From NCBI GenBank assembly GCA_022826865.1, contig JAJDUC010000028.1, forward strand, positions 62,001 to 126,000: a stretch of DNA of 64,000 nucleotides, written 5' to 3'. Made by a program: the position numbers and the translations under genes. Each line of letters starts with the position of its first letter. Within the stretch, counting starts at the first letter, position 1. Below are positions 27,473 to 29,933 of this stretch, in pieces. Below the pieces are notes generated by a model. It searched no databases. It saw only the letters and a program-made list of their open reading frames with translations, and was not told where the DNA came from. The DNA comes from Anaerolineae bacterium. GTDB lineage: Bacteria > Chloroflexota > Anaerolineae > Aggregatilineales > Phototrophicaceae.

Positions 27473-27895
27473 TCAGGCAAGGAGTTCACCCCGGAGCTTG
27501 CTGTAAGCGCCCAGCCAGTCTTCGGGGTTGCGCGTCAATCTGTTGATCTTGATATCGGCGCAATGGGGAAATAAACGCATCATCGTCTCCGGCAGCGTAT
27601 CCCAGTTTTCGGCCACAATCAACTCTTCGATCGACTTGGCAGTTAAGGACGACCACCACCACTTCTGCTGGAAGTCATCCGCTTTTTTCCAGTATCCGCG
27701 TTTTTCCCAGGCGGCTATCGATTCTTCGACAGTTTGGTCGACTCCGCGCAAGCAATAGACCAGCATGGCGACCATGTCTTTGCTTTCTTGGTTGATTTCG
27801 CTTTGCTGGCTTAACCGGCGCAGAATTTCGGCAATGGTGCGCATGTAGGCGTTGCGACGCTTGCCCGGGCTGTTGGTATTGATTACGCGCGCCAT
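27473..27895 (-). CDS. Unknown helical protein, third gene of a three-gene cassette
   Basis: 140 residues. Opens MARVINTNSPGKRRNAYMRT, then an all-helical pattern with EILRRLSQQSEINQESKDM and a Trp-rich stretch (EKRGYWKKADDFQQKWWWS). No signal peptide, membrane segment or catalytic motif. The ATG is 3 bp past the stop of the 146-aa gene, so it is translationally coupled to it. From memory, proteins with this opening recur as hypotheticals in Chloroflexota, but I could not check. Basic N-terminus and cassette context are compatible with nucleic-acid or protein contact; function unknown. Confidence 0.72.
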   Translation of the reverse strand: MARVINTNSPGKRRNAYMRTIAEILRRLSQQSEINQESKDMVAMLVYCLRGVDQTVEESIAAWEKRGYWKKADDFQQKWWWSSLTAKSIEELIVAENWDTLPETMMRLFPHCADIKINRLTRNPEDWLGAYSKLRGELLA

Positions 27896-27898
27896 TGA

Positions 27899-28339
27899 TT
27901 AACCTGAGGCGCTGTCCGCCGGCTGGTGCGGCCGTATGCCACGATAGATGCGAACCCCGCCGATGGTCTTGAGAATGGTTGCGGCGTTCCGCCCGGTGAT
28001 ATCCGCCAGCTCAAGCGCGCTGAGAGGCTGATTGCCGTGAACAAGCAGGGCGCGGAATACGCTGTCGATCAGCCCGATGTGCTCCGAAATAAAGTCGTCC
28101 CGGCGTGAAGATTCTTGTATCGCCAGTCCCAGCGTATCCAACTGAATCACTTCGCCGGTTTCGGGATGCACATAATCGAAGACTTCTCTCAAATCCCGGT
28201 TTTGCAGCGCCTGCCGCTGCTCTTGTGTCAGATGGGTCAGCAGATAGATGCGCAGGTCATCGCGGCTGTGCTTCCACCAGTCGTAGTCAATGAAGAAACG
28301 CGTTTCGACGCTCGGTTTGATCAGATAGTTCAGAGACAT
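27899..28339 (-). CDS. Unknown protein with a winged-helix-like C-terminus, second gene of the cassette
   Basis: 146 residues from ATG 28339, with AGGGGAT nine bases upstream. The N-terminal part reads YLIKPSVETRFFIDYDWW followed by helices (RDDLRIYLLTHLTQEQRQAL). Residues about 100-137 look like a winged helix: VFRALLVHGNQPLSALELAD, then ITGRNAATILKTIGGVRIYR, with RGIRPH at the end. There are no zinc ligands or catalytic motifs. It is 16 bp from the upstream 525-aa gene and 3 bp from the downstream gene. DNA or RNA binding is inference from the helix pattern. Confidence 0.75.
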   Translation of the reverse strand: MSLNYLIKPSVETRFFIDYDWWKHSRDDLRIYLLTHLTQEQRQALQNRDLREVFDYVHPETGEVIQLDTLGLAIQESSRRDDFISEHIGLIDSVFRALLVHGNQPLSALELADITGRNAATILKTIGGVRIYRGIRPHQPADSASG

Positions 28340-28355
28340 CGGCCTATCCCCTGGA

Positions 28356-29933
28356 TTAGGCGCTGAGTTTCCAATAGTTGCCGCCGACGTATTCGAATTC
28401 CGGATTCGTTATCAGCATCGCCAGCATCGGGCCGGGCGGGCAGCGGCGCAAGATATTCAGGGCGCTGTAGAGAACCTTGGCATGCACAGCTCCCTGCGGA
28501 TTTTGCTTGCAAAGCTCATCAACAAGGCCGCGCAGCAATGCCGGCAGGGCGACTTTGCGCGTCTGCAAATCCTTGCCAAGCTTGTCCACCTCTTGAAGAT
28601 TGTTGACACCGACGATGATCATCTCATCATAGTCGGCGCCAATCGCGCGCTTGGCGGATTGGAACTTGAGCTGCTGCCGCTCCGTCTTCTGCACAAGCGG
28701 GATCCATTCCGTGCGCGGGCGATAATTGTCAAATTCGATTTCAATGCGACTGCGGTCGTCCGTGCGGTTCAAATAGACATAAGCGCCGACCGGCAGATGG
28801 TGCTTCTGGTAGAGCGGCGCCAGCCCAAATACATACTTGAATTCGTGCACAACCCAACAGGGATACTCTTCTTTATCCAGCGCGTCAATCATTGTAATGG
28901 CGATGCGCGGCGTTTTGGCGTCGGGGAATATGAAGCGGGTCTCCGAATTGATCGGCAGCGTGCCAACCCGGCGATGCGGATAGATCAATGTCAGGCTCAC
29001 TTCGTCTTCAGGGCGAGACGATGTCACGGGCGAGTGTTCATCGTCCAGATCGTATTCCAATTGCCGCATCTCCCGCGAGAGCAGGCGGCGATCAAATTCG
29101 ATGGTATCGTATTGCAATATGGCGGGCACTTGCCGCGCCATGCGCGGCAATAAGTCCTTCAAGTGCCAAAGAATCTGGCCGGCCGGCCCAACTTCTTCAA
29201 AGCGTTCATCTTCATTCATATAGTAGTTGAGCGAAAACAACTGGAGCGGGAGCGGCGCGGCGCCCAATCCGCCAATCTCGCGCAGGATCCGCTGCGATTC
29301 AAGCGGACCGCCGGCGTACATATCCAGCACCGCTTCAGCAAGATGCAGGTGGCCGATATCGACCTCGACCATCAGTTCCCGCACAAACCAGGTGCCGGCG
29401 ATACGTACCAGGTCCGGGTTACGCTCGAGCGAGTCGTTAACTTGTTCAACGATGTTGGTATCCGGATCTTGCAGGATCTCTTCGACGCTGTATTCGCGCT
29501 CGAGCTGGCTGGGATGCCGGTTCAGGTCGAGATCATTCAGCGGGTGTTCCGCTTCGTATTCCACGACAAATTCGCGGATGCCGACATCGGTTTGGGCGTA
29601 GGCGTTTTCGAAGGCGACGGCAGCGACCTTGATTGGGCTGAGGTCCGTATGGGTGCCATCGCGCAGGCTAAGGACACGCGCAGTGGCATAATCAAAATGA
29701 GAAAAGGTTAGCCGATCGCCGACCTGGTAAGAATCGGCCGGCCGATATACTTTTGTATCCTGGAATTTCTGATCGCGCCGCGCCCGCTCGTTGCGCTCGC
29801 GCTTTTCGATGATCGCTGTCGCCAATTGTATGGCCGACAGTGGTGTTTCCCGGTCTAGCAGGAGGTTGGTTATGCTGTCAATATCCTCGGCGCCGATTGA
29901 AAATCTGTATGCCCAATGTTGTGCTGGCAGCAA
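28356..29933 (-). CDS. Unknown 525-aa protein with HTH-like termini, first gene of the cassette
   Basis: Starts at TTG 29933 with GGGGGA about 10 bases upstream. Residues 15-50 resemble a HARE-HTH-type helix-turn-helix (DSITNLLLDRETPLSAIQLA). Residues 65-115 look like a small beta-barrel (VYRPADSYQVGDRLTFSHFD). The C-terminus repeats a winged-helix pattern (HAKVLYSALNILRRCPPGP, ending FEYVGGNYWKL). The middle 300 residues contain no motif I know; the segment PRTEWIPLVQKTERQQLKFQ is basic. No membrane segment. Overall it resembles a DNA- or RNA-associated protein. It is divergent from rpmH across 332 bp. Confidence 0.75.
   Translation of the reverse strand: MLPAQHWAYRFSIGAEDIDSITNLLLDRETPLSAIQLATAIIEKRERNERARRDQKFQDTKVYRPADSYQVGDRLTFSHFDYATARVLSLRDGTHTDLSPIKVAAVAFENAYAQTDVGIREFVVEYEAEHPLNDLDLNRHPSQLEREYSVEEILQDPDTNIVEQVNDSLERNPDLVRIAGTWFVRELMVEVDIGHLHLAEAVLDMYAGGPLESQRILREIGGLGAAPLPLQLFSLNYYMNEDERFEEVGPAGQILWHLKDLLPRMARQVPAILQYDTIEFDRRLLSREMRQLEYDLDDEHSPVTSSRPEDEVSLTLIYPHRRVGTLPINSETRFIFPDAKTPRIAITMIDALDKEEYPCWVVHEFKYVFGLAPLYQKHHLPVGAYVYLNRTDDRSRIEIEFDNYRPRTEWIPLVQKTERQQLKFQSAKRAIGADYDEMIIVGVNNLQEVDKLGKDLQTRKVALPALLRGLVDELCKQNPQGAVHAKVLYSALNILRRCPPGPMLAMLITNPEFEYVGGNYWKLSA

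Follow-up and report, generated by a model that had tools for sequence, protein, structure and literature searches.

A conserved gene pair of Anaerolineae encodes a modular winged-helix protein with a predicted B3-type domain

The window analyzed here is a 64,000-nucleotide stretch of bacterial DNA, whose host was assigned to the class Anaerolineae on the basis of named loci. It harbors three closely spaced genes on the minus strand, encoding proteins of 525, 146 and 140 amino acids and referred to below as A, B and C (Table 1). The intergenic gaps are 16 bp between A and B and 3 bp between B and C, and this layout agrees with the coordinates of the original prediction. Close pairs gave dN/dS values of 0.065-0.087 for A, 0.032-0.092 for B and 0.068-0.145 for C; because all three have homologs across the class and dN/dS values of 0.03-0.15, they are real genes under purifying selection, not chance open reading frames. 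The TTG start of A is supported by the homolog from the nearest family, which begins at the corresponding position, by the likely ribosome-binding site GGGGGA and by the conserved upstream DNA. A predicted sigma70-like promoter (GCGCTTGAC, 18-bp spacer, TAGGAT) lies upstream of A and is kept in 32/32 loci of the lineage. An inverted repeat covering the -35 box (CAAG-N5-CTTG) resembles an operator but was dropped as a candidate, being absent from some lineage loci and, at that place, from other lineages, and an Rfam search returned no match. On the other side of the operon, positions 26919-27314 of the window encode a 131-aa predicted membrane protein, which matches no Pfam family above cut-off and recurs by the operon in 21 loci of related genomes.

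Table 1. Genes, predicted domains and upstream elements of the locus, in window coordinates (aa, amino acids).
Feature	Coordinates	Strand	Basis or remark
Gene C, 140 aa	27473..27895	-	class-specific orphan; adjoins A-B in the window's lineage only
Gene B, 146 aa	27899..28339	-	constant companion of A class-wide; no clear match for the N-terminal part; predicted winged helix at the C-terminus (residues 88-141)
Gene A, 525 aa, TTG start	28356..29933	-	predicted order: winged helix with inserted small barrel, second winged helix, B3 pseudobarrel, C-terminal winged helix
A residues 438-525, predicted C-terminal winged helix	28359..28622	-	model
A residues 307-437, predicted B3-type pseudobarrel; conserved H320, R321, R322 at N-arm position	28623..29015	-	predicted model, profiles
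A residues 189-270, predicted second winged helix; acidic, with the highly conserved segment FDEVGPAG	29124..29369	-	
A residues 129-188, linker, helix and beta-hairpin; looks like the rest of the first winged helix	29370..29549	-	model; completion of the wing inferred
A residues 59-128, predicted small SH3/Tudor-like barrel, weak likeness to the CarD/Mfd RNAP-interacting domain	29550..29759	-	model strands; hhalign 14-20%; a lead only
A residues 1-58, predicted first helices of a HARE-HTH-like winged helix	29760..29933	-	hhalign 51-62% to HARE-HTH; model
GGGGGA, likely ribosome-binding site ahead of the A TTG start	29943..29948	-	sequence; conserved G-rich block
Predicted -10 box TAGGAT of the A promoter, 18-bp spacer	30024..30029	-	kept in the same 32 loci; TACGAT in three
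Predicted -35 box TTGACG of the A promoter, core GCGCTTGAC	30048..30053	-	CGCTTGAC identical in 32/32 lineage loci

Gene A is widespread in Chloroflexota. Used as a single query it matched 72 of 400 Chloroflexota genomes, and a profile search over the same phylum raised this to 111, including 54/55 Anaerolineae genomes, each with a single copy, and about 56 from other classes, with one more match being doubtful. A scan of named genomes gave 379 relatives, the best 80 of which all belong to Chloroflexota, in line with the phylum-specific family suspected earlier, and no copy was found in plasmid or phage collections. B lies directly downstream of A in 30/30 loci and in 79 of the 80 named loci (best 80 of 379), the sole exception, L148, having no intact B; a search of 20 other-class genomes, the majority of them with A, found no B. 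Homologs of C are present as a single copy in 48/55 genomes of the class and were not detected in the other seven, nor in genomes of other classes, including those with A. C follows B directly in 44/80 named loci (best 80 of 379), all in the window's wider lineage, and sits elsewhere in the genome, often on another contig, in most remaining members of the class. The conserved unit is thus the A-B pair and not A-B-C, with C a later neighbor, added to the operon in a single lineage. A conserved three-gene cassette had been proposed for this locus, and its first two genes do co-occur as expected, whereas the third does not.

Clustering of the neighbors at about 90 loci showed that only A and B recur class-wide, whereas an rpmH-rnpA-yidC-jag block and all other neighbors are limited to one lineage. 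In four loci from other Chloroflexota classes (L060, L063, L069 and L070), the genes after the A homolog keep a conserved order: one for a HEAT-repeat protein, in many cases one for a FemX-like protein, and one for MurE; these names were assigned by eye. In the genome containing the window (G000), no protein matches DnaA above the TIGR00362 cut-off, while genomes of the same family have one; the missing match is most likely an assembly gap. A role of A as a DnaA substitute, suggested by the vicinity of rpmH and by this missing match, was rejected, as DnaA is present in 54/60 genomes of the class, two of them from the same family.

No family could be named for A from Pfam, NCBIfam, PHROGs or PADLOC, and sequence searches of the PDB with whole-protein and domain profiles, as well as searches of viral contigs, BFVD, phages and plasmids, gave nothing useful. 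An AlphaFold2 model built on 55 sequences (mean pLDDT 89.1, pTM 0.74) nevertheless suggests a series of small domains, including two barrels, the small one at residues 60-125 and a B3 pseudobarrel at residues 308-435. The first 190 or so residues, barely covered by the fold search, may form one winged helix split by the inserted small barrel. HARE-HTH domains of relatives aligned to this first winged helix with 51-62% in hhalign over 27 columns (other A domains, at most 8.6%), and the CarD RNAP-interacting domain aligned to the small barrel with 14-20% over 22 columns, the best of 100 shuffles reaching 4.6%. In hmmscan, A had no sequence match above cut-off to HARE-HTH (PF05066), and none was found to CarD_TRCF_RID (PF02559). 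Residues 190-260 and 445-525 matched winged helices with middling Z scores of 7-8 (VIA-align 2), which may reflect just a common arrangement; the second winged helix has RNA polymerase delta among its matches (Z 7.3). This winged helix and the N-terminal half of A carry a negative net charge, and the B3 domain and last winged helix are neutral to slightly positive, so that the DNA-contacting part, if any, would be the C-terminal half. Several A homologs of other classes end in acidic C-terminal tails.

The domains of A can also occur apart. In two families of the class (G088 and G128), A is reduced to its N-terminal half of about 250-260 aa (L066:9659-10417 and L067:9634-10389), with B still following it. 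A scan with the B3 profile found no B3 domain anywhere in the genomes of these two families, indicating that B3 is not indispensable, and exactly one per genome, within A, in the remaining genomes scanned. In G281, a genome of another class outside that scan, a region resembling the C-terminal half (profile positions 370-524, covering the end of the B3 barrel and the winged helix) lies in a 2174-aa protein (L162:8401-14925, minus strand), which also has a sacsin-type HSP90 ATPase domain (PF25794, E 8e-22). The adjacent gene encodes a 1633-aa protein that by eye resembles a fused DinG/RecQ-type helicase, and this region of G281 is possibly a repair or defence island. The N-terminal half in G088 and G128 and the C-terminal-half-like region in G281 together indicate that A is a modular protein.

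The model of B (pLDDT 86.7) has a C-terminal winged helix at residues 88-141, in agreement with HTH_20 and WH_GDS1 matches in a minority of its members, while its N-terminal part has no convincing match and no fold match of B was confident (best Z 5.1). HTH_20, WH_GDS1 and Csx19 (PADLOC, E 0.002) were rejected as families of B, the matches being weak, below cut-offs or confined to a minority of homologs. C is strongly conserved and restricted to the class, with a near-invariant AWEKRxYWxKAD motif and conserved residues R14, D40, W63, K65, R66, Y68, K71, W81, W98, R122 and W127; family scans and a PDB sequence search found no family for it, and HHH_6 and PolC were set aside as weak matches that lay below cut-offs or were missing from most homologs. 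The statement made from the sequence alone that none of the three proteins belongs to a nameable family therefore holds, since scans against Pfam, NCBIfam, PHROGs and PADLOC gave none above cut-off for most homologs. The helix-turn-helix-like ends and small barrel of the 525-aa protein and the winged-helix-like end of the 146-aa protein were likewise recognized correctly, and the nucleic-acid link proposed for the cassette is borne out by the models as far as nucleic-acid-type folds in these two proteins are concerned. A general positive groove, also expected, finds no support in the charges of A, its N-terminal half and second winged helix being acidic.

Textbooks describe B3 domains as DNA-binding domains specific to plants. 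The predicted model of A shows an open barrel with two short helices, as in solved B3 domains, and a comparison of residues 308-435 with plant B3 structures (Foldseek, VIA-align 2) gave a Z score of 11.3 to VAL1 (6j9a; rmsd 2.0 over 92 residues, Foldseek probability 1.00), 11.3 to FUS3 and about 10-11 to auxin response factors. Bacterial restriction enzymes followed with 9.7 for LlaJI.R1, 7.9 for BfiI and 7.5 for NgoAVII. The first 20 rows of the fold table are all B3-type chains (plant chains and LlaJI.R1), and the first winged-helix row stands at 8.2. In profile comparison, six plant B3 sequences drawn from the PDB reached 77% in hhalign (score 33.8) against the B3 region of 30 A sequences, compared with a maximum of 19.1 (3.6%) in 200 column shuffles and 0.1% for the reversed alignment; no other domain of A exceeded 1.1%. 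A profile restricted to Anaerolineae reached 54% with nulls of up to 32%, and the B3 regions of other (Chloroflexia-like) classes alone gave 5%, no better than shuffles though in the same register; the sequence link is thus supportive and not proof. The Pfam B3 family (PF02362) had no HMMER match among the 34, 9 and 30 A homologs scanned, and HMMER reached no PDB B3 chain from A. The B3 assignment thus rests mainly on the predicted structure, to which the remote sequence homology adds suggestive support.

Like the plant factors VAL1, FUS3, RAV1 and ARF1, A appears to have the same pseudobarrel over 92-97 residues (Z mostly 10-11), a weak yet specific profile likeness and basic residues at the N-arm position, where the conserved H320, R321 and R322 are putative DNA contacts. 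Unlike them, it is bacterial, shares 7-18% identity, joins its B3 domain to winged helices and stays below Pfam B3 detection. Its C-arm is short in Anaerolineae, whereas homologs of other classes have a longer one with a conserved RYPTGNRGG-type insertion. Because the Pfam B3 family was not matched, A is not classed with the plant family and is instead a new architecture carrying a predicted B3-type domain.

From these computed patterns of conservation, linkage and predicted folds, we infer DNA binding, contact between A and B and a role in transcription. The best explanation, to which we give a probability of roughly 60% as a whole, is that A and B make up an Anaerolineae operon of two genes, present once per genome and inherited vertically, in which A is a Chloroflexota-specific DNA-binding protein acting as a transcription or chromosome factor and B is its dedicated partner in this class. 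The B3 pseudobarrel, aided by the C-terminal winged helix, would read a DNA site, and the acidic N-terminal half, with its HARE-HTH-like winged helix, small barrel and second winged helix, would make protein contacts, probably including the small winged-helix protein B. Transcription regulation or chromosome organization would be the likeliest role, possibly through tethering of RNA polymerase. The near-universal, single-copy and chromosomal occurrence of A points to such a housekeeping function rather than to defence. Against this explanation stand the acidic N-terminal half, the missing Pfam B3 match, the two families without B3 and the other-class A homologs with no detectable B.

HARE-HTH and CarD/Mfd family members both contact RNA polymerase, and A-B could therefore be a polymerase-associated general factor resembling the delta subunit plus CarD, in which the HARE-HTH-like winged helix and small barrel would bind polymerase while the B3 domain and last winged helix touch promoter DNA. 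This is a possible reading, though one that we hold only tentatively. The profile likeness of the first winged helix, the delta match of the second, the weak CarD-like signal of the barrel, the acidic N-terminal half and acidic tails, and the near-universal presence of A in the class are all consistent with it, but a Z score of about 7 is middling, the barrel likeness is weak and the HARE match spans only 27 columns. A resembles HARE-HTH proteins and RNA polymerase delta in acidic character as well as in these two domains, yet it is far larger, has a predicted B3 domain and is not reached by hmmscan; its small barrel is similar to the CarD/Mfd domain at its start (vGD.lvf...G.v), yet A has no CarD C-terminal domain.

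It is unlikely that A-B acts instead in DNA repair, replication or chromosome maintenance and not in transcription. The rpmH-rnpA-yidC region often lies near the origin, and the operon is found beside it in the window's lineage; moreover, the relative of the C-terminal half in G281 is fused to the sacsin-type HSP90 ATPase next to the large helicase-like gene. However, this fusion is a single case, the placement by rpmH is lineage-specific, and repair or replication neighbors are absent class-wide. A nucleic-acid complex of all three proteins, as originally proposed, is quite improbable: the three genes are adjacent in the wider lineage of the window and C is highly conserved in the class, which speaks for it, but C lies elsewhere in most other members, is undetected in seven class genomes and is missing from other-class genomes with A. 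That A serves in restriction or defence and recognizes its target through B3, in the manner of BfiI, NgoAVII and LlaJI, is very improbable despite the known B3 fold of bacterial restriction enzymes (PMC4267653) and the fold likeness to them, as A and B have no nuclease domain (neither a nuclease family nor a nuclease fold among the matches), no PADLOC family besides the weak Csx19 match, no conserved methyltransferase or helicase neighbor, B being the sole class-wide one, and no plasmid or phage copy, and as defence genes are patchy while A is near-universal, single-copy and chromosomal.

In bacteria, B3 folds are the target-recognition domains of restriction enzymes (PMC4267653), and as far as we found, they were previously known only there; a search of the open-access literature turned up no publication on Chloroflexota B3 domains. 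A shares with the LlaJI.R1 N-domain, BfiI and NgoAVII/CglI a bacterial host and the B3 fold, but has neither a nuclease nor a methyltransferase or ATPase partner, and it is a core chromosomal gene instead of a patchy one. Plant B3 domains are usually derived from a transferred EcoRII-like restriction gene, a view with little evidence behind it; according to Romanel et al. (2009), nothing else supports it (PMC2688026). A speculative and rather improbable extension of our reading is that A is a basal transcription factor or nucleoid factor specific to the phylum, and that its B3 domain represents a non-restriction bacterial branch of the B3 superfamily, nearer to plant B3 than restriction enzymes are, and thereby an alternative bacterial source of the plant domain. 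As a bacterial protein outside restriction systems that is near-universal in its class and single-copy, A with its predicted B3 domain would provide a second bacterial context for this fold, making the question of B3 origin testable, and Anaerolineae, an abundant and poorly studied class, would gain a candidate core DNA-binding factor that lies outside all family databases used.
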